DNA of 55,508 bases, from contig MVRV01000084.1 in assembly GCA_002068015.1 (NCBI GenBank), positions 1-55,508 on the forward strand, in the 5' to 3' direction. How positions within the stretch are numbered: the stretch's first letter is position 1; the number at the start of each line of letters is the position of its first letter. Shown one piece after another: positions 8,299-34,152 of this stretch. Origin of the DNA: Smithella sp. PtaU1.Bin162 (GTDB lineage: Bacteria; Desulfobacterota; Syntrophia; Syntrophales; Smithellaceae). Below the pieces are notes generated by a model. It worked only from the letters and a program-made list of their open reading frames with translations. It had not been told where the DNA came from and made no database searches. Both the position numbers and the translations under genes were made by a program.

Positions 8299-9102
8299 CT
8301 ACGGAAACGGAGCCCGGAGGAATTGGGATGTAAGCACAAGCGAGAGCAAAACGCCCAGAACAAGCAAGGCGAATACCTCTTCACGGCCGAAGTGCTGCTG
8401 GTTTAAAGTGGTCCGCGGTCCCCGGGCATAGCCTCTTGCTTCCATCGCTTCCGTCAGATCATCGGCCCGCCTGAAGGCGCTGACCATGAGGGGTATAATG
8501 AGCGCAGCGAGGCTTTTTATTTTCCGGGCCGGCCGGCCGGTTTCTATTGCGGAGCCCCGGGCTATTTGTGCTTGTTTGATCCGGTCATACTCTTCCAGAA
8601 GTGTGGGCACGAACCGCAGAGACATGGATACCATAACGGCAATATCCTGAACGGGAACCCGGAGATACTTCAGCGGACCGAGAAGATATGTGAGCCCGTG
8701 CACAAGATCCGAAGGAGATGTGACCATGGTGAGAAGAACACCGCACAAGGCCAGGGCGATAAACTGCCAGGCAATGATCAGCCCGCGGGAAAGCCCCTCT
8801 GCAGTGATTTCTACCGGCAAATACGGAGCAGTAAATAAAACGGTGCCGTCCGTAAAAAAAAGATGCAGGGCAAAAAGCAGAACTGCAAACCAGACCAGCG
8901 GTTGAAGTGCTTTCCAAATGGAGAAAAAATTCAGCCGGCAGATAAAACAGACGATGAAGACAAATGAGCTGATCAGGAATATCTCCCAGCCCCGGGCCTG
9001 AAAAATAAGAAGAGAAAGAATGACTGTGGCGAGTATTTTGACCCTTGCGTCCAGACGGTGTCCGAAGGAATTGTTGTTTATGTATTGGCCGAGGGTAATC
9101 AT
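8299..9102 (-). CDS. ecfT: Energy-coupling factor transporter transmembrane protein (EcfT/BioN)
   Basis: This 267-residue membrane protein is the T component of an ECF transporter. It has several hydrophobic segments, starting with 'FGHRLDARVKILATVILSLLIF', where the D-R-K pattern is family-typical. Two cytoplasmic coupling helices carry the A-R-G signatures: 'RIKQAQIARGSA' and 'DLTEAMEARGYARG'. These contact the ATPases. It is last in the bioB-birA-bioY-ecfA-ecfT operon, so it most likely completes a biotin transporter with BioY and EcfA. A GGA site precedes the ATG. Confidence 0.93.
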   Translation of the reverse strand: MITLGQYINNNSFGHRLDARVKILATVILSLLIFQARGWEIFLISSFVFIVCFICRLNFFSIWKALQPLVWFAVLLFALHLFFTDGTVLFTAPYLPVEITAEGLSRGLIIAWQFIALALCGVLLTMVTSPSDLVHGLTYLLGPLKYLRVPVQDIAVMVSMSLRFVPTLLEEYDRIKQAQIARGSAIETGRPARKIKSLAALIIPLMVSAFRRADDLTEAMEARGYARGPRTTLNQQHFGREEVFALLVLGVLLSLVLTSQFLRAPFP

Positions 9103-9115
9103 GCTTTTTCCTTTT

Positions 9116-9946
9116 TTAACGCGCTCTGGTCAGTAAGCGGTGAATTTCCCGGCCGGCTTCTTCAACGGTGAAAATGTCCGGTGTCAGGGACCATCCCTGA
9201 CGATTCAGATGCCGTATCAGTTCCGTGATGGGCGGCAGGGGTAATGTAAATCCCGTATTTTCCTGCTTTGCACATAATATATCGCGGAGGTGACCGTCAC
9301 GGATCAGTTTTCCCCGGTTCATAATCAGCAGACGATCGGCGTCGGCCATGTCGGCCGCATCATGGGTGATATGAATAATGCCGATCCCCTTTTTATGCAG
9401 CTGTTTCATCATCGCAAGAACGCGCCGCCGGCCGGTTGCGTCAAGGTAGGCGGTGGGTTCATCGAAGGCGATATACCGGGGATTCATGATGAGAACCCCG
9501 GCCAGAGAAACGAGACGTTTTTCGCCGCCCGAAAGGGTGTGGGGGGCGCGTCCGGCAAGGGATTGCAGGCCGAAGCTCTCCAGAATATCATGCACCTGCC
9601 GGCGGATTTCCTGCGGCGGCAGGTTAAGATTTCCGGGACCAAAGGCGATATCCTCTTCAACGGTCATTCCCACGATCTGATTATCCGGATTCTGAAAGAG
9701 CATGCCGACAAGACGGCGGATTTCCTTGTGGTTCGCCGGATCAGCGGTATCGAGGCCGTCTATGGTCACAGTACCCCGGTCCGGACGGACGAGAGCATTG
9801 AGCTGCCGGATCAGGGTTGTTTTACCGCAGCCGTTCGAACCGGTTAAGGCAACATATTCCCCTTCATGGATTTCCATGCTTATATCGCTCAGTGCCGGAG
9901 CCGCAGAGCCTTCATACTGATAGAAGATATTATTGATCTTGATCAT
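9116..9946 (-). CDS. ecfA: ECF transporter ATP-binding protein (EcfA/BioM)
   Basis: This 276-residue ABC ATPase has Walker A GSNGCGKTT (36-44), the Q-loop Gln at 85 in 'MLFQNPDNQ', signature LSGGEKR (138-144), Walker B 'YIAFDEPTAYLD' and the H-loop 'GIIHITHDAADMA'. The 'NPDNQ' Q-loop is characteristic of ECF ATPases. Its start overlaps the bioY stop by four bases. Only one ATPase gene is present, so it should act as a homodimer as in BioMNY systems. Confidence 0.94.
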   Translation of the reverse strand: MIKINNIFYQYEGSAAPALSDISMEIHEGEYVALTGSNGCGKTTLIRQLNALVRPDRGTVTIDGLDTADPANHKEIRRLVGMLFQNPDNQIVGMTVEEDIAFGPGNLNLPPQEIRRQVHDILESFGLQSLAGRAPHTLSGGEKRLVSLAGVLIMNPRYIAFDEPTAYLDATGRRRVLAMMKQLHKKGIGIIHITHDAADMADADRLLIMNRGKLIRDGHLRDILCAKQENTGFTLPLPPITELIRHLNRQGWSLTPDIFTVEEAGREIHRLLTRAR

Positions 9947-10491
9947 ATTCTGTTAAAAATATGCCTCCGAATTTTTCGGCAGATGAGAGAGGCCGCAATG
10001 ATTTTGGCTGCATCGCCGGGAAGAGGGGGGAGCAATCCGACAGAGACGGCTTTTAGGAAGCTCAGCTTTGCCACGATCATAAGTTGTATGATTCCCAGGG
10101 TGTAGACAACGATCATCCCGGCGGTTATTGCACCCATCAACCAAAACACTCCGGGATCGCGGCGCAGCGACGTCAGTTTGCCGAGAATAAAGGCACCGGC
10201 CACAAACCCGATCAGATAACCGCCCGTAGGTCCGATAAGAACGCCGATGCCGGCTCTGCCGCCGGCAAAAACTGGAAGACCGATGATGCCTAAGAGAATG
10301 TAACCGATCTGGCTTAATGCTCCCAGGTATCCGCCCAAGAGTGCTCCGGACAGCATGACAAAGAGCGTCTGCATTGTAATGGGCACAGGCGGCAGGGGAA
10401 TCATAATATAAGCTCCGATTGCCATGAGTGCACTGAACATGGACGCATAAGCCATACCGCGCAGCGATGTTTTTTCCGGTGTTTTGTTCAT
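9943..10491 (-). CDS. bioY: Biotin transporter substrate-binding subunit BioY
   Basis: BioY is the S component that binds biotin in the membrane. The 182-residue protein has six hydrophobic segments and the family motifs 'MIPLPPVPITMQTLFVMLSGALLGGYLGALSQIGYILLGIIGLPVFAGGRAG' (residues 31-81) and 'IGPTGGYLIGFVAGAFILG'. It lies between birA and ecfA, and the neighbours supply the energising module. Confidence 0.96.
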   Translation of the reverse strand: MNKTPEKTSLRGMAYASMFSALMAIGAYIMIPLPPVPITMQTLFVMLSGALLGGYLGALSQIGYILLGIIGLPVFAGGRAGIGVLIGPTGGYLIGFVAGAFILGKLTSLRRDPGVFWLMGAITAGMIVVYTLGIIQLMIVAKLSFLKAVSVGLLPPLPGDAAKIIAASLICRKIRRHIFNRI

Positions 10492-10497
10492 AATATC

Positions 10498-11508
10498 TCA
10501 CATTATCGTTATATCTCCGGAAAACATGCGCATTTCGCCTTCCCGGTCGTTGCGGAGGATTAAAAAGCCATCGCAATCCAGATCCGTGACTTTTCCGCTG
10601 CAGCTGCCGTTGATCGTCTCAATAGTTACTTGTCTGCCCAGCATATCCGTCAAGTCCTTCCAACGAATTATAATGGGATCAAATCCCGATTCCCTGAACA
10701 CTCGATACCAGCTTTCCAGTAATTCCAGAAACCGGCGCAGGAGGAAAACCCGGGGAAATGGTTTTCCGGTTTCCGTAATAACACTAGTGGCCTTGCTGCG
10801 GAACTCTGCGGGGAAATGGTCGGCGGGAGTGTTGACGTTAATGCCCAGACCGATGATCATATAATCAACGGCATCCATTTCCATCGACATTTCCAGAAGG
10901 ATTCCCCCTATTTTTTTACTTCCCACCAGGATATCGTTCGGCCATTTGATAGTCGCCTTGAGACCGGCGGCAGCGATCAGAGTTTCGGCCGCCGCAACGG
11001 CGGCAAGAATACTCATCCGCGATGCCGTATCGGGGAGCAGCGGCGGCCGTATAATCAGGGAAATACAAATATTTTCTCCTGCCGGGGCAAACCACGTCCG
11101 GTTGAGACGGCCTCGTCCCTGAACCTGTTCTTCGGCAATTACAAGAACCCCTTCGGCGGCGCCGAAGGCGGCCAATTCCTTGGCCCTGCGGTTGGTGGAA
11201 TCTGTTTTTTCAAGGCAGTGAATATCCCGCTGGCCAAAAATGGAAGTATTTAATCCGTCGCGGATTTCCCGGATAAGCATCCGGTCGGGAATGTCCGCAA
11301 GGAGGTAGCCCTTGCGGGGTGACGAATTTATTTTGTATCCTTCTTTTCTCAGAATTTCAATTTTCTTCCAGATGGCGGAGCGGGTCATAGCCAAACGCTC
11401 GGCCAAAAACTGGCCGGAAAGCCATTGTCCCTGATGTTGTTTCAGGAGGTTCAGTATCACATCGCTGCCTGCGTTTGCCTGTTCCAAAGCCTTAATCATG
11501 TTCGTCAC
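10498..11508 (-). CDS. birA: Bifunctional biotin repressor / biotin-protein ligase
   Basis: BirA makes biotinyl-5'-AMP, transfers biotin to carboxylase carrier proteins, and as holo-repressor controls biotin genes. This 336-residue protein has the full-length layout. An N-terminal winged helix (residues 17-66, 'LAERLAMTRSAIWKKIEILRKEG') is followed by the ligase core with GRGRLNRTW (131-139), KWPND (188-192) and 'GSKKIGGIL' (196-204), then the C-terminal SH3-like domain. The presence of the DNA-binding domain agrees with the operator found upstream of bioB. Its ATG overlaps the bioB stop (ATGA). Confidence 0.96.
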   Translation of the reverse strand: MTNMIKALEQANAGSDVILNLLKQHQGQWLSGQFLAERLAMTRSAIWKKIEILRKEGYKINSSPRKGYLLADIPDRMLIREIRDGLNTSIFGQRDIHCLEKTDSTNRRAKELAAFGAAEGVLVIAEEQVQGRGRLNRTWFAPAGENICISLIIRPPLLPDTASRMSILAAVAAAETLIAAAGLKATIKWPNDILVGSKKIGGILLEMSMEMDAVDYMIIGLGINVNTPADHFPAEFRSKATSVITETGKPFPRVFLLRRFLELLESWYRVFRESGFDPIIIRWKDLTDMLGRQVTIETINGSCSGKVTDLDCDGFLILRNDREGEMRMFSGDITIM

Positions 11509-12557
11509 TTTTTCTTTGAGGTTGCGGTTTTATGACCACAGGTTTTTCCTGTTTTTGCTGCGCAGGAGCACAGGGGTTTTGCTTCCCGCGTGGTTTTAAG
11601 CCCCAGATCGGCGATCATTTCCTGATCAAGAGCGTTTTCCCGGCCGGCCGTTGTTAAATAATTTCCCGTCATCAGGGAATTGGCGCCCGCCATGATGGCG
11701 AAAGGCAGCAGCTGCCGCAGGTTTTTTTCTTTGCCGCCGCATAGTTTGATGTCCCGGTCGGGCAGCAGGAAGCGGAAAATGGCGATGGTCAGCAGGATTT
11801 CCAGGGGCGGCAGGGGCTCCCTGCGGGCGAGCGGAGTTCCTTTGATCGGGGTGAGGATGTTCAGAGGTACGGAATCAACATCCAGTTCCCGAAGTGTTTG
11901 GGCTAATTCGATCCGGTGGGTAATTCCCTCTCCCAAACCGATAATTCCCCCGGAACAAACAGTAAGGCCGGCTTCCTGCGCAGCTTGTACCGTTTTTACA
12001 TCTTCGTCATAAGCATGGGTCGTGCAGATGGCGGGAAAGAAACTCCGGGATGTTTCAAGGTTATGATGGTAACGGTAGAGGCCGGCATCTTTTAAATCCC
12101 GGGCTTTTTGTGTATCTATGATACCGAGAGAAGCGCAGGGCTGAAGTCCCAATTTCCGGATCTCTCCAATGGCCCGGAAAATTTCCGACCACTCTTTTTT
12201 TGTTTTTACCGTTTTGCCGCTGGTGACGATGCCGAACATTTCCGCCCCGCTGCGGGCAGCCTCTTCGGCCGCCGCGCCGATTTTTGCAACACTCTTCAGA
12301 GGATAAGAAGATGTACCTGTTGCATAATGGGAAGATTGGGCGCAAAAGGAGCAATCCTCCGAACATTTGCCTGATTTTGCATTGACGATGCCGCAAAGGA
12401 TGATTTCCCGTCCCTTGAAATGCTCACGTATTTCGGAGGCCGCGGCCAGAATCCGGAAAGGACGGCTCGCGCCTTCAATGAAAAGGGCCAGAGCCTCATT
12501 GGCGTTAGTGCCTCCTTTTTTAACGGCCTGATCTTTCAGTTTATCAATAATATCCAA
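11505..12557 (-). CDS. bioB: Biotin synthase
   Basis: BioB is the radical-SAM enzyme that inserts sulfur into dethiobiotin. The CxxxCxxC motif is at Cys65, Cys69 and Cys72 (GKCSEDCSFCAQS). Later family motifs are 'YRYHHNLETS', 'CSGGIIGLGE', 'VPLNILTPIKGTPL' and 'LMTGNYLTTAGR'. The 350-residue length is normal. The extreme C-terminus is a Cys- and Lys-rich tail (LCSCAAKTGKTC...). The start is a TTG at 12557 with AAAGGA about eight bases upstream. It is first in the biotin operon. No bioF, bioA or bioD is in the window, so the cell either has them elsewhere or depends on uptake plus dethiobiotin conversion. Confidence 0.96.
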   Translation of the reverse strand: MDIIDKLKDQAVKKGGTNANEALALFIEGASRPFRILAAASEIREHFKGREIILCGIVNAKSGKCSEDCSFCAQSSHYATGTSSYPLKSVAKIGAAAEEAARSGAEMFGIVTSGKTVKTKKEWSEIFRAIGEIRKLGLQPCASLGIIDTQKARDLKDAGLYRYHHNLETSRSFFPAICTTHAYDEDVKTVQAAQEAGLTVCSGGIIGLGEGITHRIELAQTLRELDVDSVPLNILTPIKGTPLARREPLPPLEILLTIAIFRFLLPDRDIKLCGGKEKNLRQLLPFAIMAGANSLMTGNYLTTAGRENALDQEMIADLGLKTTREAKPLCSCAAKTGKTCGHKTATSKKK

Positions 12558-12664: not shown

Positions 12665-12839
12665 TTCTGCAGTCGGTGCGTATTCTGTGCGGGATTAATA
12701 TCCCGGGAGATTACATTTTCCCCCTGCGGTCACGGTGTAACTTAATCAATTGGCCGGCTTGAATTTTACCTTTCTTCGTGATAGCTTTTAATGAATGTTT
12801 TTCACTCGCAAAGCTTGTGTCGCAACTGGAAGGAGAATC

Positions 12840-13472
12840 TTGAAATATTATCCCCTTTTTTTCAATATTACGGGTAAAAAATGTGTGGTGATCGGCGGCG
12901 GCGAGGTAGCGGCAAGAAAAATTGCGAGGCTTCTCGACTGCGCTGCCGAAGTTTATATCGTAAGTCCGCAGTTGAGTCCGGAGCTTGTTAAACTGAAAGC
13001 CGGCAATAACATTAAACATATTGCGGATAATTATAATGCCCGTTACCTTGCCGGGGCGGTTTTGATTATCGGGGCGACGGATGACGAAAAGACAAATGCG
13101 GCGATTTCCTCAGATGCCCGTAATCTGGGCGTCCCGGTGAATATAGTTGATGATCCGCAAAAATGCGATTTTATTCTGCCTTCCGTTATCGAAAGAGGTG
13201 ATCTGACTATAGCCGTCAGCACCGGCGGTAAAAGTCCGGCACTGGCTCGCCGCCTGCGGGAAGAGCTCGCGAAAAAATACGGCGGAGAATATGAAATCCT
13301 GCTCAAAATTCTGGGGAATATGCGCCGGCAGTTAAAAAATTCGGAGACGGGCAATTCCTGGTGTGATTCCCTCATCGACTCCGGAATCCTTGAGGCAATT
13401 GCCGCCGGGAATTGGGAGAAGGTTAAGAAAACGGTTAAAGAAATAACCGGCGAGGAGGTGGTGCTCGGGTAG
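12840..13472 (+). CDS. Precorrin-2 dehydrogenase / sirohydrochlorin ferrochelatase-like (CysG N-terminal type)
   Basis: The product converts precorrin-2 to sirohydrochlorin with NAD+ and may insert iron to make sirohaem, the starting point of the Ahb haem route. From a TTG at 12840 it has 210 residues. It begins 'KYYPLFFNITGKKCVVIGGGEVAARKIARLL', where the GGGxVAxRK nucleotide-binding loop is the family hallmark, followed by 'LIIGATDDEKTNAAI', 'VNIVDDPQKCDFILPSVIERGDLTIAVSTGGKSPALA'. AGGAG at 12831-12835 supports the TTG start over the longer frame from 12795. It opens the operon; the next gene starts two bases after its stop. Confidence 0.92.
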   Translation: MKYYPLFFNITGKKCVVIGGGEVAARKIARLLDCAAEVYIVSPQLSPELVKLKAGNNIKHIADNYNARYLAGAVLIIGATDDEKTNAAISSDARNLGVPVNIVDDPQKCDFILPSVIERGDLTIAVSTGGKSPALARRLREELAKKYGGEYEILLKILGNMRRQLKNSETGNSWCDSLIDSGILEAIAAGNWEKVKKTVKEITGEEVVLG

Positions 13473-13474
13473 TC

Positions 13475-14290
13475 ATGGAAATTATATTATTCAAACTTGC
13501 CTTTGCCTTTTGCCTGCTCAGTACGGCCGGTTATCTGCTTTCGCTTTTAATTAAAAAAGTGGTGCCGGCGAAAATATCCACCTGGATACTGGTTATCGCT
13601 TTCGGTTTTCTGACCATTAATTTATTTCTGGTGATGGTCAATCCGGCAGGCTATATCAAGATTGGTTCCCGGGAGTTTTTTTCATTTTGTGCCTGGGTGG
13701 TGGCCGGCGTTTATCTCGCCTTCCAGATGAAAACCAAAACGAGGATTCTGGGTTCGTTTATTTCTCCCATTATTTTGTTGCTGATGATTGCCGCCGCCGG
13801 ACGGGAATCCGGCAGATCACTGGTTCCGGAAGACATGCTGGGCTGGCTTACCCTTGTTCATCTGGTTTTAGTTGTTGCCGGCGAAGCGTTATTTATTCTC
13901 GCCTCCTGCGCCGGAGCGATGTTTATTATTCAAAACAGCCTCCTGAAGCACAAAAAATCAAGCCATATGAGCAGGCTTCTGCCGGCGCTTCATGACCTTG
14001 ACCGGATTAATCATCTCGGCTTGCTTTGGGGTTTTCCTGTTTTGACCCTGGGACTTTTTGCCGGAATTGTATTTGCCGGATATACCTGGGAATCAGGATG
14101 GCCGGGAGATCCGAAAGTTATCTGGACATCTGCCGCCTGGGCGGCGTATGGATTTCTGCTGCATCAGAGGCTGGCCATCGGCTGGAAAGGCATTCGTATG
14201 GCTGTCATATCCTGCGCCGTTTTTATTTTGTTGTTGCTTTCTTATTCCGGTGTAAGATTTTGTTTTTCAACTTTGCATGATTTTGTTTAG
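13475..14290 (+). CDS. HemX/CcsA-like cytochrome c assembly membrane protein
   Basis: This 271-residue membrane protein has about eight hydrophobic segments and belongs to the CcsA/CcmC superfamily (cytochrome c assembly protein, PF01578). The tryptophan-rich loop characteristic of that family appears as 'YTWESGWPGDPKVIWTSAAWAAYGFLLHQR', which spans residues of a WWD-like motif. Conserved His residues in membrane segments could bind haem. Genes of this type next to hemA are called HemX and are thought to affect haem export or glutamyl-tRNA reductase level. It sits between the sirohaem synthase gene and hemA with minimal spacing. Confidence 0.82.
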   Translation: MEIILFKLAFAFCLLSTAGYLLSLLIKKVVPAKISTWILVIAFGFLTINLFLVMVNPAGYIKIGSREFFSFCAWVVAGVYLAFQMKTKTRILGSFISPIILLLMIAAAGRESGRSLVPEDMLGWLTLVHLVLVVAGEALFILASCAGAMFIIQNSLLKHKKSSHMSRLLPALHDLDRINHLGLLWGFPVLTLGLFAGIVFAGYTWESGWPGDPKVIWTSAAWAAYGFLLHQRLAIGWKGIRMAVISCAVFILLLLSYSGVRFCFSTLHDFV

Positions 14291-14293
14291 AGC

Positions 14294-15556
14294 ATGATAG
14301 CATTAATTGGCTTAAATCATAAAACGGCACCGCTTGCCGTAAGGGAAAAGCTTTTTGCCGGTTGTCAGGAAGAAAGTGATTTGCCGGTCCGGCTCACCGC
14401 TGTTTGCGGCATCCGGGAAGCAATGTTTCTTTCTACCTGTAATCGCATAGAGATTCTGACCCGGATCGACGGGCAGGAGGAGACTCTTTATAAACTGCGG
14501 GATTTTCTGGCGGCCAGCGGCGGTTTAACGCCAGAGGAAGCTCGCGATTGCCTTTATCTGTATTGCGACGAAAATGCTGTAAGGCATCTTTTTCGGGTTG
14601 CGGCAAGTCTGGATTCGCTCGTGATGGGTGAAACACAGATACTGGGACAGGTGAAAGATGCCTACCGTCGGGCACTCGAAAAAAATTCTACCGGTGCGGT
14701 TCTGAATCGCCTGCTGCACCGGGCTTTCCGGACGGCAAAAAGAGTACGCTCGGAGACGGCCATTGCCGTAAATCCGGTATCGGTGAGTTTTGCCGCCGTA
14801 ACTCTCGCCAAAAAAATATTCGGTTCTCTTACTGGTAAAGAAGTTCTGGTGATCGGTGCCGGAGAGATGGCCGAGTTGACCGGCATGCATCTGGTGGCCA
14901 ACGGTATTTCCGGGATCATTATTGCCAACAGATCGCAGGCCCAGGCATCGGTTCTGGCGGAAAAGTTCCATGGCCGGGCCGTATCTCTGGAAGCCCTGAG
15001 AGAGGCGCTTACCGAAGCCGATATTGTCATCAGCTCCACCGGTGCTTCTTCTTATATTGTAAGCGCCGATTTAATCAGGCAGGTTCATCATCAGCGTAAA
15101 AACCGGTTGCTGTTTTTGATTGATATCGCTGTTCCGCGGGATATTGATCCGCAGGCGGGTGCCGTCGAAAATGTTTACCTTTACAATATCGATAATCTGC
15201 AGGATATTGTCGACGAAAATATGAATGCCCGCAAAAAGGAAGCATTAAAAGCCGAAGCAATTGTGGAAGAGGAAGTTAAGAACTATATCAACTGGGTTAA
15301 GGAACTCGATGCTGTTCCGACGATAGTATTACTAAGAAACAAAGTGGAAGAAATTGTCCGGCTGGAACTGGTTAAGGCCGGATCATGGATGAAGGATATG
15401 AATGAGACGGAAAGACAAAAAGTGGAAATCCTGATCAACTCGATAGTGAACAAACTTCTGCACAATCCGGTGACGGTACTGAAAGAAGAGAGTTCCGAAT
15501 TTAAATCGGCCGATATTGTTGCTTTGACCAGACAGCTTTTCCGCCTGGACGAATAA
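14294..15556 (+). CDS. hemA: Glutamyl-tRNA reductase
   Basis: HemA reduces glutamyl-tRNA to glutamate-1-semialdehyde, the committed step of the C5 route. The 420-residue protein has the N-terminal 'GLNHKTAPLAVREKL', the catalytic Cys49 in 'FLSTCNRIEIL', 'GETQILGQVKDAYRRA', the NADPH-binding 'VLVIGAGEMAELTG' and the C-terminal dimerisation helices ('RNKVEEIVRLEL', 'INSIVNKLLHNPV'). It starts three bases after the HemX-like gene. hemL, for the next step, is not in the window. Confidence 0.97.
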   Translation: MIALIGLNHKTAPLAVREKLFAGCQEESDLPVRLTAVCGIREAMFLSTCNRIEILTRIDGQEETLYKLRDFLAASGGLTPEEARDCLYLYCDENAVRHLFRVAASLDSLVMGETQILGQVKDAYRRALEKNSTGAVLNRLLHRAFRTAKRVRSETAIAVNPVSVSFAAVTLAKKIFGSLTGKEVLVIGAGEMAELTGMHLVANGISGIIIANRSQAQASVLAEKFHGRAVSLEALREALTEADIVISSTGASSYIVSADLIRQVHHQRKNRLLFLIDIAVPRDIDPQAGAVENVYLYNIDNLQDIVDENMNARKKEALKAEAIVEEEVKNYINWVKELDAVPTIVLLRNKVEEIVRLELVKAGSWMKDMNETERQKVEILINSIVNKLLHNPVTVLKEESSEFKSADIVALTRQLFRLDE

Positions 15557-15609
15557 GAAAAACCGGCTGCAATTACAAAGAAGGAAAAATAATTAAATAT
15601 TGGAGCAGA

Positions 15610-16533
15610 ATGAAGATTAAAATAGGAACGCGCGGCAGTAAGCTCGCTTTAATACAGGCCAATCTGGTGGCCGCTAAAATACGAAAAGAAGCTCCGGGAA
15701 CAGCTGTTGAAATTCATGTCATCAAGACCAGCGGCGATGTTATGCAGGATGTTTCACTTTTAAAAATCGGCGGCAAAGGTGTGTTTGTCAAAGAAATTGA
15801 GGACGCTCTTCTTGCCGGCGGTATTGATCTGGCCGTACACAGCATGAAGGATGTTCCCGGTGAAACGCCTGAAGGTCTTGCCTTCTGTGCCGTTCTTCCA
15901 CGGGAAGATGTGCGCGATATTCTGGTATCACGCGGCAACGTTAAAATAGAGTTCATGCCCCGGGGAGCGCGAATAGGTACCGGGTCGCTCAGGCGTGCTG
16001 CTCAGATTAAAGCGATGCTTCCCGATGTCGTCATAGTTTCACTACGCGGCAATATCGATACTCGCCTAGATAAAATTGAGAAGGAAAATTTAAACGGGAT
16101 TATTTTGGCGGCGGCTGCCCTGAAAAGACTCGGATATTTTCAGAAAATAACGCAGTATCTGCCGGTGGAATTGATGCTGCCGGCGGTTGGGCAGGGGGCG
16201 CTGGGGTTGCAGATAAGGGAAACGGATCACGCTTTGGCCGGAATTCTCGCGAGGTTGAACCATGCTCCGACCGCTGCGGAAATTACCGCCGAACGTGCTT
16301 ATCTTCTGGCATTGGGCGGCGGATGTTGCCTGCCGATTGCCGCATATGGGAAAACGGAAGGCGGGAATCTCTTTCTGGAGGGTATGATGGCGGCTCCCAA
16401 CGGCACTATTGTAATTCGCGACAAAGTCAGAGGATCCGTTGCGGATGCGGAAGAATTGGGTAGGGAACTCGCCCGCATTATTCTGGAGAAAGGCGGCAAA
16501 AAACTTCTGAATTTGTGTACGGAAATAATATGA
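15610..16533 (+). CDS. hemC: Hydroxymethylbilane synthase
   Basis: HemC polymerises four porphobilinogens to hydroxymethylbilane. Motifs are 'IGTRGSKLALIQA', 'IKTSGD', 'VHSMKDVP', 'ARIGTGSLRRAAQ', 'SLRGNIDTRLDK' and 'LPAVGQGALG'. The dipyrromethane cofactor attaches to Cys239 in 'ALGGGCCLP', which here is followed by a second Cys. The 307-residue length is normal, and GGAG lies eight bases before the ATG. The stop overlaps the next ATG (ATGA). Confidence 0.97.
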   Translation: MKIKIGTRGSKLALIQANLVAAKIRKEAPGTAVEIHVIKTSGDVMQDVSLLKIGGKGVFVKEIEDALLAGGIDLAVHSMKDVPGETPEGLAFCAVLPREDVRDILVSRGNVKIEFMPRGARIGTGSLRRAAQIKAMLPDVVIVSLRGNIDTRLDKIEKENLNGIILAAAALKRLGYFQKITQYLPVELMLPAVGQGALGLQIRETDHALAGILARLNHAPTAAEITAERAYLLALGGGCCLPIAAYGKTEGGNLFLEGMMAAPNGTIVIRDKVRGSVADAEELGRELARIILEKGGKKLLNLCTEII

Positions 16534-18089
16534 ATAAAAAAAATAAACCGGGAACGGTATATATTATTGGAGCGGGACCGGGCGATGCTGGATTGATTAC
16601 GGTGAAAGGGGCCGACTGTCTCGGCCGGGCGGATGTTGTTGTTTACGACTATCTGGTCAATGAAGAATTACTGGAGTACGCACGGCCCGCAGCGAGGTTT
16701 GTTTATGCCGGTAAAAAGGGCGGAGAGCATACTTTGCCACAGGATAAGATCAATGAACTGTTGGTAAGAGAAGCGCAAGACGGCAACACGATTGCGCGTC
16801 TTAAGGGTGGAGATCCCTTTATTTTCGGGCGCGGCGGTGAGGAAGCGGAGGAGCTGGCCCGGAATAACGTGCCTTTTGAAATAATTCCCGGCGTTACTTC
16901 CGCCGTTGCCGTTCCCGCCTATGCGGGTATTCCGCTGACACATCGGGGACTTACTTCCACAGTGGCATTTGTCACCGGCCATGAAGACCCGGCCAAAGAA
17001 AAAAGTGATATCGATTGGCCGACTCTTGCCGGAATCGGCACGCTGGTTTTTTTGATGGGTGTGAAAAATATTGCCCGCATTACGGATGCTTTAATTAAAT
17101 ATGGTAAATCGCCTTCCACGCCTGCGGCTCTAATCCGCTGGGGGACGACTCCCCGGCAGGAAGTTGTTACGGCAACGCTGGATGCGATTACTGTGCGCGC
17201 TGAGGCCTGCGGTTTTGCTCCACCGGCAATTCTTGTGGTGGGCAATGTTGTTGATCTGCGGGAAACACTTAAGTGGTTTGACGGAAAACCGCTTTTCGGT
17301 AAAGGTATTGTCATAACACGTCCGGAGCGTGAGAAGGATAATCTCGCCGCATTGCTTGCGCAGGAAGGTGCACGGGTTATTTGCTTTCCGACAATAAAAA
17401 TAACGCCGCCGCCCGATTGGAGCAGTCTCGATGCCGCAGTGACTCAACTTAATACTTATAACTGGATAATATTTACGAGTGCCAACGGGGTGCATTATTT
17501 TTTCGAGCGGCTGGCGGCGTTGGGCAAGGATATCCGGGAACTGAAAAGCGTTAAAATATGCTGTATCGGTCCGGCGACGGCTTTCCAAATTCAGGCAAGG
17601 GGGATAGGAGTTGACCTGATTCCCGAATATTATATTTCCGAAGGCATTCTGAAATCATTGGCCAAACTGGATTTGGCGGGACAAAAAATACTGATCCCCC
17701 GGGCGGTGCATGCCCGGGATGTCCTTCCGGAAGGGCTGACTAAAATGGGAGCGGCCGTGGATGTGGTGGCCGCATATGAAACAGTGAATTCCGGCAGAAA
17801 GAAAGAAGAGCTGTTGGAACTGATCAGGAATGATGGTATAGATGTAATTACTTTTACCAGTACTTCGACCGTAACCAACTTTTTGGAAATTATGGGCGGG
17901 GATTTCATCTGTCCGGCGAAAATCAGGATAGCCTGCATCGGACCTATTACCGAAACGGCGGCGCAAAGGGCCGGATTTAATGTCGATATCCGGCAGGACG
18001 AATATACCATGGAAGGGCTGGTGCAGTCCCTGGTACAATATTTCAAAAACGAACAGGCGGCGGAAAGCGGAAAGAGGAATAATTCATGA
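16530..18089 (+). CDS. cobA-hemD: Fused uroporphyrinogen-III C-methyltransferase / uroporphyrinogen-III synthase
   Basis: This 519-residue fusion does two consecutive steps. The N-terminal half is a SUMT (CobA): 'YIIGAGPGDAGLITVKG', 'VVVYDYLVNEELL', 'GDPFIFGRGGEEAEEL', 'VPFEIIPGVTSAVAVPAYAGIPLTHR'. The C-terminal half is HemD: 'IVITRPEREKDNLAALLAQEGA', 'IIFTSANGVHYFFERL', 'CCIGPATAFQIQARG' and 'VITFTSTSTVTNFLEI'. Such fusions are common in Firmicutes and Desulfobacterota and push flux to precorrin-2. The ATG at 16530 overlaps the hemC stop. The frame also runs back to a GTG at 16515, which is less likely. Confidence 0.95.
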   Translation: MNKKNKPGTVYIIGAGPGDAGLITVKGADCLGRADVVVYDYLVNEELLEYARPAARFVYAGKKGGEHTLPQDKINELLVREAQDGNTIARLKGGDPFIFGRGGEEAEELARNNVPFEIIPGVTSAVAVPAYAGIPLTHRGLTSTVAFVTGHEDPAKEKSDIDWPTLAGIGTLVFLMGVKNIARITDALIKYGKSPSTPAALIRWGTTPRQEVVTATLDAITVRAEACGFAPPAILVVGNVVDLRETLKWFDGKPLFGKGIVITRPEREKDNLAALLAQEGARVICFPTIKITPPPDWSSLDAAVTQLNTYNWIIFTSANGVHYFFERLAALGKDIRELKSVKICCIGPATAFQIQARGIGVDLIPEYYISEGILKSLAKLDLAGQKILIPRAVHARDVLPEGLTKMGAAVDVVAAYETVNSGRKKEELLELIRNDGIDVITFTSTSTVTNFLEIMGGDFICPAKIRIACIGPITETAAQRAGFNVDIRQDEYTMEGLVQSLVQYFKNEQAAESGKRNNS

Positions 18090-19273
18090 TCGGCATTTCC
18101 AAATTATATTGCGGTGCGGTAGAACCTTCGGATGTCCTGCGCTACGGCCGGGAATCCGGGAAATTGCCCTCGCATCTTCTGCAGTTTTCCGCCGATAAGC
18201 GTCCGGTAGTTGTTTGGAATATAACCCGCCGCTGTAATCTGCGCTGCATTCATTGCTATTCCAATTCCCGGGATATTTCTTTTGCCGGTGAACTCACGAC
18301 AGGGGAGGGGAAAAACGTACTGAAGGATCTCGCGCAATTCGGTTCTCCGGTAATTCTTTTCTCCGGCGGCGAGCCGCTGCTGCGCCCTGATCTGGCGGAT
18401 CTCGCCGAATATGCCGTGGATCAGGGATTAAGGGCCGTCATTTCGACAAACGGTACTTTAATTACGAAAACCATTGCCGGGAAGTTGCAGAAAATCGGCC
18501 TTTCTTATATAGGTATAAGTCTGGACGGTACGGAAAAGACGCATGATACTTTCCGGCGGACAAAAGGTGCTTATGCGGCTGCTCTTACCGGAATTCGCAA
18601 TTGCCGTGACGCGGGAATAAAAGTCGGTATACGTTTCACCGTAAGCAGGCATAATGTTCAGGATGTTGCGGCCATGTTCGATCTGCTTGCGGAAGAAGAG
18701 ATCGAAAGGCTTTGCTTTTATCATCTGGTTTACAGCGGCCGCGGCCTGGAACTTAAAAATGAGGATTTAACTCCGGGAGAAACCCGTAAACTTCTCGATC
18801 TGATTATGCGCCGGACGAAAGAGTTGTTTGCCGCCGGAAAGCCGCGGGAAATTCTTACCGTCGATAATCATGCCGACGGTCCCTATCTCTATTTGAGGCT
18901 GCAGGAAGAAAATCCGGAAAGAGCAAAAGAGGTTCTGGAACTGCTTAGAATGAACGAAGGCAACAGTTCAGGCCACGGTATCGGATGCATCAGCTGGGAC
19001 GGAGAAATTCATCCTGATCAGTTCTGGCGCAGCATTTCTTTCGGTAATGTGAGGGAAAGGCCGTTTAGTGAAGTATGGCTGGATAAATCCATGGGACTTC
19101 TGGTAAAGTTGAAAGAAAAAAAGAAATATGTGCAGGGACGTTGTGCCGGGTGCCGCTGGTTGGATATTTGTGGTGGTAACTTTCGGGCGAGGGCAGAGGC
19201 TGCCGGAAATATCTGGGGGCCTGATCCGGCCTGTTACCTTTCTGATGAAGAAATTTCCGTTAAGGAGGGTTGA
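18086..19273 (+). CDS. ahbC: 12,18-didecarboxysiroheme deacetylase (radical SAM)
   Basis: AhbC removes the two acetate side chains of 12,18-didecarboxysiroheme to give iron-coproporphyrin III in the alternative haem pathway. The 395-residue protein starts with the family-typical 'MIGISKLYCGAVEPSDVLRYGR' region (residues 1-22). It carries the radical-SAM CxxxCxxC in 'CNLRCIHC', 'FSGGEPLLRPDL', 'ISLDGTEKTHDTFR', and a C-terminal auxiliary cluster region (CISWDG, then CAGCRWLDICGG and a final Cys). Its ATG overlaps the hemD stop. The split between AhbC and the related AhbD at 20839 is made from N-terminal extension and C-terminal Cys pattern. Confidence 0.9.
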   Translation: MIGISKLYCGAVEPSDVLRYGRESGKLPSHLLQFSADKRPVVVWNITRRCNLRCIHCYSNSRDISFAGELTTGEGKNVLKDLAQFGSPVILFSGGEPLLRPDLADLAEYAVDQGLRAVISTNGTLITKTIAGKLQKIGLSYIGISLDGTEKTHDTFRRTKGAYAAALTGIRNCRDAGIKVGIRFTVSRHNVQDVAAMFDLLAEEEIERLCFYHLVYSGRGLELKNEDLTPGETRKLLDLIMRRTKELFAAGKPREILTVDNHADGPYLYLRLQEENPERAKEVLELLRMNEGNSSGHGIGCISWDGEIHPDQFWRSISFGNVRERPFSEVWLDKSMGLLVKLKEKKKYVQGRCAGCRWLDICGGNFRARAEAAGNIWGPDPACYLSDEEISVKEG

Positions 19274-19275
19274 AG

Positions 19276-19764
19276 ATGAAACAGGAAATGTTGAAGGAGA
19301 ACCTGGCATTAATGGAGAAGTTGAAAGAACTTCCGGTACTGCATTCGTTCGGCACAAAGGATATGAACAAGCTTCTCACCTTCAGTAATGTAAAAAAATA
19401 TTTTGCCGGTGAAACGATTATCGAGGAGGGAAGCTATGACAACTGGATTTATTTTCTGGTTGATGGTCATGTCCGGATAGTTAAAAATGGAGAGGAAATA
19501 GACACACTGAGACGTACCGGAGATATCTTCGGAGAGATGTGTGTGATTGACGGATCTCCGCGTTCGGCTTCGATTGAGGCAATCGACGATGTCACCTGTC
19601 TGGCCACGGATGTATCCTTTATGGATAGTCTCTACAGTGAAGACAAGGTGGCGTTTTGTGCGGTATTTTATCAAATGATTGCCGAAGTACTGGCTTGCCG
19701 GCTGCGGGAAACAAGCACGGAACTGGTTAAAATAAAAGAAGAACTGCAAAGGCTGAAAAAGTAA
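19276..19764 (+). CDS. Stand-alone cyclic-nucleotide-binding domain protein
   Basis: This 162-residue protein is a single cNMP-binding domain of the CRP/PKA type: '[16 protein letters not shown]', '[34 protein letters not shown]', '[27 protein letters not shown]'. The phosphate-binding cassette reads [14 protein letters not shown], with the Glu and Arg expected for cyclic-nucleotide binding. There is no helix-turn-helix; the C-terminus is a charged helix. It starts at ATG 19276 with GGAGGG six bases away, immediately after ahbC and before hemB. The context suggests a role in haem synthesis, for example as a ligand- or redox-sensing regulator of a neighbour, but no such function is established. 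Confidence 0.85.
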
Positions 19765-19786
19765 CGGCAGTAAAGGAGGTTTTAAA

Positions 19787-20761
19787 ATGCAATTCCCTGA
19801 ATATCGTCCCCGAAGGTTGAGGAAGAATGAAAATTTTCGTCGTCTGGTTCGTGAAACACAGGTAAGTGTCGATGATTTGATCTATCCGCTTTTTGTGGTT
19901 CCCGGCAAAAACGTTAAAAAACCGATCCAGGCTATGCCCGGCAACTTTCAGATGTCCGTAGACAACATCGTTCGCGAGGCCGAGCTCGCCTGTAAACTGA
20001 AGATACCGGCTCTATTGCTTTTTGGAATTCCGTCGCATAAAGATGAACTGGCCACCGGCGCCTTTGCCAAGGACGGAATTGTTCAACAGGCCGTGAAGAA
20101 AATAAAAAAAGAAGTTCCGGATATTTTGATTGTGACCGATGTCTGTCTGTGTGAGTACACCAGTCACGGCCATTGCGGTATGCTCGAGAAAGAAACGGTC
20201 GATAATGACTCGACTTTGGAGGTGCTCACGGAAACAGCCGTTTCCCATGCTCGCGCCGGTGCCGATATGGTTGCGCCTTCGGCTATGATGGACGGACAGG
20301 TAGCGGCAATCCGGGAGGGTCTTGATGAAAATAATTTCGCGGATGTTCCCGTTATGGCTTATGCCGCCAAACATGCTTCCTGCTTCTACGGACCTTTCCG
20401 GGAAGCCGCGGAGAGTGCCCCGAAATTCGGCGACAGAAAATCCTACCAGATGGATCCGGCCAACGGTGATGAAGCGATGCGGGAAATCACGCTCGATGTT
20501 GCGGAAGGTGCGGATATTATCATGGTAAAGCCGGCTCTTCCTTATCTGGATATCATCTGCCGGGCCAAACAGGAATTTGACCTGCCGCTCGCGGCCTATA
20601 ATGTGAGCGGTGAATTTGCCATGATTAAAGCAGCGGCGGCCAACGGGTGGCTCGACGAAGAGCGCGCCATGCTTGAATCACTCACGGCAATAAAACGGGC
20701 AGGCGCCGACATTATCATTACGTATTGGGCCAAACAGTTTGCCGAGCTGCAAAGTAAATAG
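19787..20761 (+). CDS. hemB: Porphobilinogen synthase (delta-aminolevulinate dehydratase)
   Basis: HemB condenses two 5-aminolevulinates to porphobilinogen. The 324-residue protein has the two Schiff-base lysines, Lys195 (AAKHAS) and Lys248 (MVKPA). It also has the Cys triad of the zinc-dependent class: Cys120, Cys122 and Cys130 in '[14 protein letters not shown]'. The N-terminal arm '[19 protein letters not shown]' is typical. A strong AAAGGAGG site precedes the ATG. Confidence 0.97.
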
Positions 20762-20838: not shown

Positions 20839-21921
20839 ATGCCATCGGGTCACGGTTTGCCAAATTCCGACAATAACCTGCGGATGATTGCCTGGGAAGT
20901 CACGCGCCGCTGCAATCTGAATTGCCTGCACTGCCGGGCTGCTGCAGGCTGCGGCCCTTTTGGCGGAGAGTTATCAACAAATGAATGCATGGGACTTCTC
21001 GATGCAATTGTGCAAGCGGGAAATCCGGTAGTGATTATGACCGGGGGTGAACCGCTTTTAAGACCGGATATTTTCGATCTGGCGGCAGCAGGTACGGCTA
21101 AAGGGTTGCGTATGGTTATGGCCACGAACGGTACGCTGGTTGATACAGCCGTGGCCAGACAGTTGATCCAAAGCGGCATTAAAAGAGTCAGTATCAGTGT
21201 CGACGGAAAGGATGCCGCCGGCCACGACGCTTTGCGCGGCGTGCCCGGAGCTTTTGCCGGAGCAATGGCCGGAATTAATGAACTGAAAAGCGCCGGGATG
21301 GAATTCCAAATCAATACGACGATAACAGCGGATAATATCGATCAGATAAAAGATATTCTTGATCTGGCCGTCAATATCGGCGCGGCGGCGCATCATATTT
21401 TTCTGCTCGTACCGACCGGACGGGGCAGAAACCTCGCCTCCCGGACAATTAACGCCGCTGATTACGAAAAAACACTGCTGTGGTTTCATGAGCAGAGCCT
21501 GTCTTGCGGAATACAACTTAAAGCAACCTGTGCGCCGCATTATTTCCGGATCAGGCATCAGCAGAAGGATAATAACCGGGAGACCAAAAAACTGCGGGGG
21601 CAGTTTTCTGAAGCCACGCGCGGCTGTCTGGGCGGCATTTCCTTTTGCTTTATCTCTCATACGGGAATAGTACAGCCCTGCGGTTATCTGGAACTTGACT
21701 GCGGTAATGTGCGCAGTGAGGAGTTTCCCGTCATATGGCAAAATTCGGAAGTATTTAAAAATCTGCGGGATCCGAGTAAATACGACGGCAAATGCGGCCG
21801 GTGCGAGTTTATCAAGGTATGCGGTGGCTGCCGGGCCAGAGCTTATGAAAAAACCGGTGATTATCTGGCCGAGGAGCCGCTTTGTCTTTACGAACCCGGG
21901 CAAAAATTATTCAGCAGATAA
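20839..21921 (+). CDS. ahbD: Heme b synthase (AhbD, radical SAM)
   Basis: AhbD oxidatively decarboxylates the two propionates of iron-coproporphyrin III to vinyl groups, giving haem b. The 360-residue protein has 'EVTRRCNLNCLHCRAAAG' (CxxxCxxC), 'IMTGGEPLLRPDIF', 'ISVDGKDAAGHDALRGVPGAF', 'TTITADNIDQI' and a SPASM-like C-terminus with 'GIVQPCGYLELDCGNVR' and 'CGRCEFIKVCGGCRARAY', which suits a second Fe-S cluster. It is followed directly by the Lrp-like decarboxylase subunit gene. No obvious Shine-Dalgarno precedes ATG 20839. Confidence 0.9.
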   Translation: MPSGHGLPNSDNNLRMIAWEVTRRCNLNCLHCRAAAGCGPFGGELSTNECMGLLDAIVQAGNPVVIMTGGEPLLRPDIFDLAAAGTAKGLRMVMATNGTLVDTAVARQLIQSGIKRVSISVDGKDAAGHDALRGVPGAFAGAMAGINELKSAGMEFQINTTITADNIDQIKDILDLAVNIGAAAHHIFLLVPTGRGRNLASRTINAADYEKTLLWFHEQSLSCGIQLKATCAPHYFRIRHQQKDNNRETKKLRGQFSEATRGCLGGISFCFISHTGIVQPCGYLELDCGNVRSEEFPVIWQNSEVFKNLRDPSKYDGKCGRCEFIKVCGGCRARAYEKTGDYLAEEPLCLYEPGQKLFSR

Positions 21922-22380
21922 ATGATCATGGATGAAATCGATAAAAAATTGCTCAACATTCTGCAGAAGGAATTTCCGCTTACGGAATATCCTTTTGCCG
22001 TCGTTGCGGAACAATGCGGTATCGGCGAAGAGGAAGTGCTTATCCGGGTCGGCAGATTGAAAAAAGAAGGAATTATCCGCCGGATCGGAGCGGTTTTTGA
22101 CGGAGCTAAATTAGGTCGTGCCGGTACTCTTTGCGCCGCCCGTGTTCCGGAAGATAAAATCGGTGACTTTGTCCGGATTATCAATGCCGAAAAAGGTGTT
22201 ACGCATAATTACCGGCGCCGCAACGAGTATAACGTCTGGTTTACCGTCAACATGGCTACCTCGGATAAACTGGATGAGTTTCTGGAGCATGTGAAAGAGA
22301 AAACCGGTGTCACGGATATTCTCGACATGCGGGCGGTCAAGACATATAAAATAGATGCATCCATGGAAATGGTCTCATAA
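21922..22380 (+). CDS. Siroheme decarboxylase subunit (AhbA/AhbB, Lrp/AsnC-like)
   Basis: AhbA and AhbB form a heterodimer that decarboxylates sirohaem to 12,18-didecarboxysiroheme. This 152-residue protein has the Lrp-like fold: an N-terminal winged helix (MDEIDKKLLNILQKEFPL, then EEVLIRVGRLKKEGIIRRIGA) and a RAM-like half with 'GVTHNYRRRNEYNVWFTVNM', whose His and Arg residues match the active-site region of the family. Only one such gene is present here; I cannot say whether it is A or B. The start is ATG 21922, adjacent to the ahbD stop; ATG 21928 is possible. Confidence 0.85.
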   Translation: MIMDEIDKKLLNILQKEFPLTEYPFAVVAEQCGIGEEEVLIRVGRLKKEGIIRRIGAVFDGAKLGRAGTLCAARVPEDKIGDFVRIINAEKGVTHNYRRRNEYNVWFTVNMATSDKLDEFLEHVKEKTGVTDILDMRAVKTYKIDASMEMVS

Positions 22381-31911: not shown

Positions 31912-34152
31912 TTAGAATCCCAGCCATTGAACAAAGTTATAGGCCAGCACACCACCGAAATAAGATACAAGCAGAGTTAGAACAATTGAAGAATAAAACC
32001 AGCGGTTGCTGTTCATTTCTTTTTTCAAAACGGCAATGGTCCCGGCACAGGGAATAAACAGCATCATCACGACCAGAAACGCCGCGGCCGATGCATGACT
32101 CATGACCTGTGGCAGCACACGTACCAATCCCTCTTCGCCCACGGAATAAAGAACTCCCAGTGTCGCCACGACATTTTCTTTGGCGACAAGTCCGGTTAAA
32201 AGTGCGGTGATCATTTTCCAGTTCAGGCCAAGAGGAGCGCCGGCCGGTTCCAGCAGTTTGCCTGCTTGCGCGAGCCAGCTTTCTTCGACCACTCCCGAAG
32301 GATAGTAGGACAAAATCCAGATCACTATGGCGACCGCGAGAATTACCGTTCCCGCTTTGCGCACAAAAGCAATTGTTCTGGCCCGGACAACCATCATGAT
32401 GGTTCTTAAATCCGGCCGGTGATAGATGGGCAGTTCCATAATAAAAGGAGCGTCCTGCTTCCAGATGGCCTTATTTACAAAAATTCCCGCTATTCCCAGA
32501 GCAACTATGTTCACGGCCAGAATGCTCCAGGATACGTAAGGGGCGTTGGAGCCGAAGACGGCTGCCGAAACGAGTGTCAGAACGGCAAGTCTGGCGGCGC
32601 AGGGAACAAAGGGAATCAAAAGCAGCGTGATCATCCGTGCCTTGCGGGTTTCGATAATCCTTGCTCCCAGCACGGCGGGAACGTTGCACCCGAAACCAAG
32701 ACACATCGGAATAAAGCTTTTGCCGTGCAATCCGACGAGATGCATGATTCTGTCCATAACAAAGGCGGCGCGCGCCATATAGCCTATATCTTCCAGAAGC
32801 GCCATGATCACGAAGAAAATAATCAGTACGGGCAGAAAAGTAATCACCGAACCGGCGCCGCCGATGATGCCGTTCAAAAACAATCCCTTAACCCATACGG
32901 GAAATCCGGCCAGTGAAGGTTCACTCCAGACAGTGAAGTGCTGAATCAAGCCGTCGAGCCAGTTCTGCAGGGGAATTCCTATGGAATATGTAAGGAAGAA
33001 CACGATCGCCATAACGGCAAGTAAAACCGGAATACCGAATACCGGCCGGGTCAGGATGTGGTCGATTCTGTCGGTCATGACCACCTGACCCATCTTGAAA
33101 CGGGAAAGAGCCGCCCGTGATATTTGTTCAATCCAGTCATAACGTCCGTTTACGACCGCATGCAGTGAATCTTCGTGCTCGCTGAAGAGCGCCTGAATCT
33201 TTTTCCAGGAATCCGGAGGCATCTGCTCCTCCATCTGCCTGGAAACATCGGCGTCTCCTTCCATTAATTTCACTGCCAGCCACTCCGGCGTATAGGGCTC
33301 GCGGCAATAAGGACGAACATAGGATATGATTTTTTGATAAACGGGCAGGTGCTCGGCCGATACTTCCGGCAACCGCGGATTGAGCTTCAGTTCGCCTGCG
33401 GCGAAAACGCTGATCTGGGTAATAAGTTCTTTAATACCGTTGTTGCGCTTGGCGACCATGGGAGTGACGGGGATGCCTAAAGATTCCTGCAGCGCCCTCG
33501 TATCTATCTGAATGCCCTGCTGCGAGGCGACATCGAGCATGTTCAGTGCCACAATCACCGGCCGGTTGAGCAGAAGAACTTCCGCCAGAAGGTAAAGACT
33601 TCGTTCCAGCGCCGCGGCATTTAAAACCAGAACAACTAAATCCGGTTTTTCTTTAATAATAAATTCACGGGTAACTCTTTCTTCTTCTGAAAAAGCAGTG
33701 AGGCTGTATGTTCCGGGTAAATCGACGATCCTGATCAGCAGTCCTTGCGACCGGTGAAATCCCTCTTTTTTTTCAATGGTTTTTCCCGGCCAGTTGCCGA
33801 CATGCTGGGACAAGCCGGTGAGAATGTTGAAGACGGTGGATTTGCCTACATTGGGCTGACCGGCAAGGGCGACGAATATTTCCTTTTCGGCGTCAGGTTC
33901 GCAGATATTTTCTTTGGCCGGCGGCGCTTTATAAACCATTATTTTTGCCGCCTCACCCTGTCCCAGGGCAATTTTTGTATCCGCTACCTGTACGATGACG
34001 AGACCGCCGCTGACCTGGGCGATTTTAAATTTGGCATTGGCGACAATACCCATTCCCGCGAGGCGGCTCATTAAAGCGGAACCTCCGTCAATGGAAGAAA
34101 TGATGCCCTGGTCGCCTTCCAGCAATCGGGTTATGGGAATGGAATTGGTCAT
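31912..34152 (-). CDS. feoB: FeoA-FeoB fusion ferrous iron transporter
   Basis: This 746-residue protein joins an N-terminal FeoA (SH3-like) domain, residues 1-75 (GDQGIISSIDGGSALMSRLAGMGIV), to FeoB. The FeoB G domain has G1 GQPNVGKST (98-106), G3 DLPG (144-147) and G4 NMLD (204-207). The membrane part carries Gate motifs ('IMALLEDIGYMARAAFVMDRIMHLVGLHGKSFIPMCLGFGCNVPAV' region and 'LLIPFVPCAARLAVLTL'). It imports Fe2+, needed for the Fe-S and haem enzymes nearby. GGAGAGAC precedes the ATG. The DUF2156 gene lies 10 bases upstream, on the same strand. No separate feoA or feoC is seen. Confidence 0.95.
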   Translation of the reverse strand: MTNSIPITRLLEGDQGIISSIDGGSALMSRLAGMGIVANAKFKIAQVSGGLVIVQVADTKIALGQGEAAKIMVYKAPPAKENICEPDAEKEIFVALAGQPNVGKSTVFNILTGLSQHVGNWPGKTIEKKEGFHRSQGLLIRIVDLPGTYSLTAFSEEERVTREFIIKEKPDLVVLVLNAAALERSLYLLAEVLLLNRPVIVALNMLDVASQQGIQIDTRALQESLGIPVTPMVAKRNNGIKELITQISVFAAGELKLNPRLPEVSAEHLPVYQKIISYVRPYCREPYTPEWLAVKLMEGDADVSRQMEEQMPPDSWKKIQALFSEHEDSLHAVVNGRYDWIEQISRAALSRFKMGQVVMTDRIDHILTRPVFGIPVLLAVMAIVFFLTYSIGIPLQNWLDGLIQHFTVWSEPSLAGFPVWVKGLFLNGIIGGAGSVITFLPVLIIFFVIMALLEDIGYMARAAFVMDRIMHLVGLHGKSFIPMCLGFGCNVPAVLGARIIETRKARMITLLLIPFVPCAARLAVLTLVSAAVFGSNAPYVSWSILAVNIVALGIAGIFVNKAIWKQDAPFIMELPIYHRPDLRTIMMVVRARTIAFVRKAGTVILAVAIVIWILSYYPSGVVEESWLAQAGKLLEPAGAPLGLNWKMITALLTGLVAKENVVATLGVLYSVGEEGLVRVLPQVMSHASAAAFLVVMMLFIPCAGTIAVLKKEMNSNRWFYSSIVLTLLVSYFGGVLAYNFVQWLGF

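Follow-up and report, generated by a model that had tools for sequence, protein, structure and literature searches.

The window analysed here is a stretch of 55,508 nucleotides from Smithella sp. PtaU1.Bin162 (contig MVRV01000084.1), and within it lies a run of haem genes with one additional member (Table 1). Between ahbC and hemB stands a gene for a protein of 162 amino acids with a cyclic-nucleotide-binding domain (CNBD). The preliminary description had placed a lone CRP-like sensor domain here, closely spaced with its neighbours, and this holds good: PF00027 is the sole Pfam domain in the protein, the gene begins 2 bases after the stop of ahbC, and hemB begins 22 bases after the gene ends. 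The surroundings constitute a true siroheme-dependent haem operon. As in other Ahb operons, ahbA, ahbC, ahbD, hemA, hemB, hemC and cobA-hemD are clustered, but the CNBD gene is extra: 106 of the 117 AhbC-bearing genomes sampled from the order have no such gene beside ahbC. AhbB is encoded on another contig of the source genome (G000:C51; 138.9 bits, cut-off 125). The roles of AhbA/B, AhbC and AhbD are taken as given in PMC11306076.

Table 1. Positions in the window of the CNBD gene, the haem genes around it and the putative ribosome-binding sites.
Feature	Position	Strand	Basis
Upstream operon: precorrin-2 dehydrogenase (CysG N-terminal type), cytochrome-c-assembly-type membrane protein, hemA, hemC, cobA-hemD fusion	12795..18089	+	Pfam, NCBIfam
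ahbC, 12,18-didecarboxysiroheme deacetylase (radical SAM/SPASM)	18086..19273	+	TIGR04546, 689.3 bits, cut-off 650
Shine-Dalgarno-like AAGGAGGG ahead of CNBD gene, within the end of ahbC	19262..19269	+	sequence reading
CNBD gene, lone cyclic-nucleotide-binding-domain protein, 162 aa	19276..19764	+	PF00027, predicted structure, six CRP contacts
Shine-Dalgarno-like AAAGGAGG before hemB	19772..19779		sequence reading
hemB, porphobilinogen synthase	19787..20761	+	PF00490, E 1e-153
ahbD, haem b synthase	20839..21921	+	TIGR04545, 541.6 bits, cut-off 500
ahbA, sirohaem decarboxylase subunit alpha	21922..22380	+	NF040708, 161.4 bits, cut-off 140

The frame of the CNBD gene runs from ATG at 19276 to TAA at 19762-19764. 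A longer version could begin with TTG at 19270, overlapping the stop of ahbC, and the ATG was chosen because of the Shine-Dalgarno-like sequence ahead of it. That site and the one before hemB are both strong, and since the gaps are short as well, the plain reading is that ahbC, the CNBD gene and hemB would share one transcript and be closely coupled. No promoter-like site was found between 18000 and 21000, where 3.1 were expected; terminator-like sites in the same interval number five, against 3.5 expected. One of the five, on the + strand at 19217-19232, within ahbC, was not accepted as real. Elsewhere in the window, a cluster that lies upstream of the haem genes and diverges from them (8299-12557) encodes a biotin-synthase-like radical SAM protein with a BATS domain, a biotin-ligase-like protein with a helix-turn-helix, an ABC ATPase and a CbiQ-type transport protein, and at 31912-34152 a single protein of 746 amino acids carries both FeoA and FeoB domains.

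Is the gene more than a chance reading frame? It is, because copies at the same place in three other genomes (G003, G034 and G028) encode proteins 81-84% identical to it and because the ratio of nonsynonymous to synonymous change is low. By the NG86 method dN/dS is 0.11 against G003 and 0.07 against G034, and the gene is thus under purifying selection in the two computable pairs out of four tried, the other two being saturated, as were most gene pairs. At third codon positions the CNBD gene is 67% identical to that of G003, versus 49-57% for eight flanking genes, a difference that is no more than suggestive of recent transfer of the CNBD gene.

The match to PF00027 is a sound one (58.1 bits against a curated cut-off of 27.5; E 8.8e-16, residues 40-122). 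A Pfam scan of the protein found no helix-turn-helix or other DNA-binding domain, so it does not belong with the CRP/FNR regulators, and the NCBIfam CRP model agrees with it over positions 13-136 of 214, scoring 34.3 bits where the cut-off is 266. The structure predicted for a single chain (mean pLDDT 77.6, pTM 0.66) shows helices at the N terminus, the beta-roll of a CNBD and a long C-helix that would extend over 41 residues (121-161). The motif in this helix matches that of CRP.

There are marks in CRP by which a CNBD that binds cAMP may be recognized: a Gly-Glu and an Arg-Ser that bind the phosphate and a Thr-Ser on the C-helix. The contacts in the E. coli protein, which I take to be G71, E72, R82, S83, T127 and S128, align (K-12 reference) with G86, E87, R96, S97, T146 and S147 of the CNBD protein, so that all six are matched. 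The family preserves them. In an alignment of 18 rows, G86, E87 and R96 are invariant, position 97 is serine or threonine in every row, position 146 is threonine in 17, and position 147 is serine or threonine in 17. This is not a property of the domain in general, as judged by the 14 PF00027 domains in the source genome, just two of which carry all six contacts. One is the CNBD protein. The other (L005; G000:C39:61718-62107) is a second lone CNBD.

Then there is the evidence of distant relatives. The best profile matches in the PDB are the domains of eukaryotic PKG and PKA, followed by others that include Bd1971 and bacterial CRPs, while the search by fold found PKG, Thermus thermophilus CRP, GlxR and 3gyd. 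The CNBD protein has in common with the sensor half of E. coli CRP the fold, the six cAMP contacts and the C-helix, and with T. thermophilus CRP, GlxR and Mycobacterium tuberculosis CRP the fold and the C-helix, but it differs from these CRPs in ending past the C-helix, without a helix-turn-helix. The regulatory domains of PKA and PKG, top matches by sequence profile, have a phosphate-binding cassette of the same type; the CNBD protein, in contrast, is bacterial, single-domain and free of any kinase. Another solved structure, 3gyd (Mfla_1926 of Methylobacillus flagellatus), is a CNBD with a chain length of 180 residues; it comes from another lineage and aligns with a TM-score of 0.72 by query and 0.66 by target, at 20% identity. 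The conserved CRP-type contacts, together with the PKG, PKA and CRP relatives in profile and fold, make it likely that the protein binds cAMP; the matches of PKG type make cGMP a possible ligand. The earlier suggestion that the protein binds a nucleotide has thus become probable, with six CRP contacts matched, and because the domain is alone and has no DNA-binding partner within the protein, action through contact with another protein is probable too.

A role in defence was considered and set aside, the PADLOC matches falling on the CNBD part of Pycsar proteins. The match to the Pycsar effector PycTIR, a fusion of CNBD and TIR, spans positions 31-145 of a 288-position profile, and the protein has no second Pfam domain. 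As to a source of cAMP, the genome encodes six class III cyclase domains. At least one is found in all 12 genomes of the first sample that have a close family member, versus 36 of the 47 others, but such domains are too common and the difference too small to carry weight.

How widespread is the association with ahbC? The first sample, 59 genomes including the source, has a close family member in 12 and a weak match in G052 (3e-24), with AhbC in 51. A larger sample covers 155 genomes of the order Syntrophales, with the CNBD family taken at E 1e-40 and AhbC at E 1e-80. The family is present in 27 and AhbC in 117. Both occur in 22 genomes, adjacent to each other in 11 and apart in 11, and 95 of the 117 AhbC genomes have no family member at that threshold. 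These counts do not support the idea that the protein belongs to the Ahb route in general. The 11 genomes with ahbC directly upstream of the CNBD gene are G000 (the source), G003, G006, G028, G034, G036, G043, G472, G473, G475 and G476, drawn from four families of the order. The copy in G442 lies at a contig end, where the next gene is the same as in the family f16, and the other 15 of the 27 are elsewhere. G028 is counted as adjacent; without it the count is 10. Its CNBD contig (L068, G028:C112) is only 4,666 bases long and holds ahbC in three pieces, and the genome possesses a second, complete ahbC-hemB without a CNBD gene, on account of which the contig may be a stray or a duplicate. In family f16, the order in G475 and G476 is ahbC, CNBD, then a gene for a TPR protein; in G473 hemB does not appear within 1.4 kb past the CNBD gene, and in G472 the contig stops at the CNBD gene itself. 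No fusion of AhbC with a CNBD was found in the loci read, a frame of 730 amino acids around ahbC in G043 extending upstream, away from the CNBD gene.

In the phylum at large, 33 of 395 genomes have the family (E 1e-25), at 38 places. Two of these are beside ahbC, in the source genome and in G043, and 36 are away from it. For thirty of the places the neighbours were read directly, in loci that include up to 1.5 kb of flank on either side; the remaining eight were judged by lying on a contig other than that of AhbC (seven) or by the absence of an AhbC match (one).

It is equally instructive to look at operons that lack the gene. There are 35 such loci (28 of 30 from one set and 7 from another), and in 33 of them hemB is the next gene of the pathway after ahbC. 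The exceptions are L113, where the contig ends, and L132, where a TPR gene stands in place of hemB. The latter belongs to G049, of family f16, which has ahbC and the TPR gene and lacks the CNBD gene. (Immediately upstream of ahbC in the same locus, at L132:4374-6071, is a BrkB/YihY membrane protein with a different CNBD fused to it.) In the 33 loci ahbC and hemB lie between 6 and 315 bases apart, and in 22 of them the gap does not exceed 26 bases, the figures being distances between those genes regardless of small open reading frames in the wider gaps. The loci with hemB next include those of the congeners G001 and G002 and of G037, G056, G057 and G039, whose family member sits elsewhere in the genome. 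Since ahbC is followed by hemB in all but two of the loci that lack it, the operon can evidently do without the CNBD gene and keep its order. Some Syntrophales thus have in their haem operon a conserved yet optional gene, which adds no new step to the haem pathway, because most of the relatives sampled have the haem genes without it.

The preliminary description would have taken absence from related operons as a sign of chance insertion. Absence from most of them is indeed what the survey for co-occurrence with ahbC and hemB gives, but "chance insertion" is too strong, because the linked copies group together, they come from four families, and in f16 the ahbC-CNBD pair persists where hemB is not next. 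The grouping is seen in two trees. The wider has 49 rows, omitting L012, G473 and the second copies in two-copy genomes, and ten of the rows linked to ahbC fall within a starred clade of 12, together with L052, at a contig end, and L021, the stand-alone copy in G044, a genome in which no AhbC match was found. The second tree has 38 rows; it takes in every one of the 11 linked copies and more of the order, but fewer rows from the phylum. There the 11 copies and L052 form one group (support 85/81), recovered in 83% of 200 bootstrap trees, and L021 falls immediately outside it. A single joining is the simplest account of linked copies that form one group: the CNBD gene probably, though not beyond doubt, came to stand behind ahbC once, in part of the Syntrophales.

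What happened thereafter is less tidy. On an AhbC tree of 45 rows, the carrier state needs six changes, five of them forced by starred branches. (The tree omits the duplicate loci L065 and L067, as well as ten AhbC genomes from the 51 of the first sample: G009, G010, G014, G015, G019, G020, G024, G026, G029 and G030.) One joining followed by repeated loss or exchange would give such a pattern, the change counts fitting gain or loss alike. Within the source genome the two neighbours tell different stories. Its AhbC is 82-83% identical to those of G006 and G008, which belong to other genera, and 73-77% identical to those of the other six genomes compared (73-75% for the congeners G001-G003). Its CNBD protein is 81-84% identical to those of G003 and G034 and 63% identical to that of G006. 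Both groupings, AhbC with G006 and G008 and CNBD with G003 and G034, are starred on their trees, and therefore ahbC or the CNBD gene appears to have been exchanged separately in this genome. The source genome's hemC and polA are nearer those of its congeners, and hemB is uninformative. A piece of the operon with ahbC was likely the part exchanged.

I propose, with somewhat more belief than doubt, that the CNBD protein is a stand-alone receptor dimer of cAMP type that acts by protein contact and serves as an optional accessory of the haem operon. It would consist of a CRP-like CNBD and a long C-helix, lacking any output domain, and would come from a family of the phylum whose members lie for the most part in other places of their genomes and which was placed behind ahbC probably once, then kept or lost. 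It would bind cAMP supplied by the cell's class III cyclases, dimerize through the C-helix (modelled as a single chain) and act by touching another protein. Co-transcription, if it occurs, would tie expression of the haem genes to the sensing of cAMP, and the protein may be a tuning device of the operon. The domain, the conserved ligand-contact residues and the conserved but optional place can be read from the sequence; ligand, partner and effect are what I infer. AhbC is the best guess among possible partners, because it remains the neighbour where hemB is not next, but it is a tentative guess that I would not be surprised to see fail. Less likely still is the full picture in which this receptor docks on AhbC and cAMP sets the flux from didecarboxysirohaem to haem, perhaps as part of a wider habit in the family of pairing with radical SAM enzymes. 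Several things weigh against the proposal as a whole: most AhbC genomes of the order lack the family, half of those with both have them apart, no residue of AhbC or HemB marks the carriers, ahbC and the CNBD gene have discordant histories in the source genome, and the family adjoins other proteins elsewhere in the phylum, such as a SLAM-like TPR protein and a different radical SAM protein.

An alternative view is that the gene is along for the ride: its product would be a cAMP receptor that serves a process with no connection to haem and merely makes use of the operon's expression. This is a serious possibility, if one I would bet against. The gene is optional, with its six changes of state on the AhbC tree; nearly all its places in the phylum are away from ahbC; and the histories of ahbC and the CNBD gene disagree in the source genome. 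Moreover, no residue in AhbC (10 carriers against 35 others; 120 of 200 shuffles as high) or in HemB (7 carriers against 33; 46 of 200) marks the carriers, in a comparison of low power whose shuffles ignore kinship. A mere passenger, however, would not so readily explain why linked copies cluster on the tree or why adjacency to ahbC is found in four families, even where hemB is not next.

Two further roles draw on the kinship with CRP. A CRP without its helix-turn-helix might pair, C-helix to C-helix, with full-length regulators of CRP type and, in such mixed dimers, dampen their binding to DNA, and the CRP-like motif in the helix, 41 residues long in the model, would suit this. Yet a mixed dimer set by cAMP is not obvious, because four PF00027 domains that lie in frames of CRP-like length in the source genome (L002, L004, L011 and L013) lack the Glu and Arg contacts to cAMP, and I consider the idea improbable. 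It is too much to expect that the protein is instead a sensor of haem or porphyrin that feeds back on the pathway. The position within a haem operon invites the thought, and the CRP fold can hold haem, as it does in CooA. The pocket, though, has retained its contacts for a cyclic nucleotide, the invariant columns of the 18-row alignment include one cysteine (C108) and no histidine, and most members in the phylum sample live away from ahbC.

If the receptor does act on AhbC, then cAMP would be tied to the supply of haem in anaerobes with the siroheme-dependent pathway, and close relatives without the gene offer natural controls. Even as a hitch-hiker it would point to a compact family of predicted receptors of cAMP type that have no helix-turn-helix. 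The literature searched, mostly outside subscription journals and so weak evidence of absence, yielded nothing that connects AhbC with a cyclic-nucleotide-binding protein, and none of the matches listed concerned a haem operon with a lone CNBD. Within the reach of these searches, a known kind of protein stands in a new setting.

Other settings of the family are worth recording. In three loci from three other families of the phylum (L088:2003-3022, with the CNBD gene turned to +, and likewise L089 and L090) the gene after the family member encodes a radical SAM protein, part of which aligns with AhbC at 32-33% identity. The one from L088, the only one scanned, exceeds no cut-off among the NCBIfam matches listed (25 models). 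The gene that precedes the pair appears by eye to be purF-like. In family f52 (L081, L083 and L084, again with the CNBD gene turned to +) the CNBD gene is followed by one for a protein of about 460-480 amino acids. In L081 and L083 this protein runs to the end of the locus; that of L084, the one scanned, contains TPR repeats and a SLAM-like domain.
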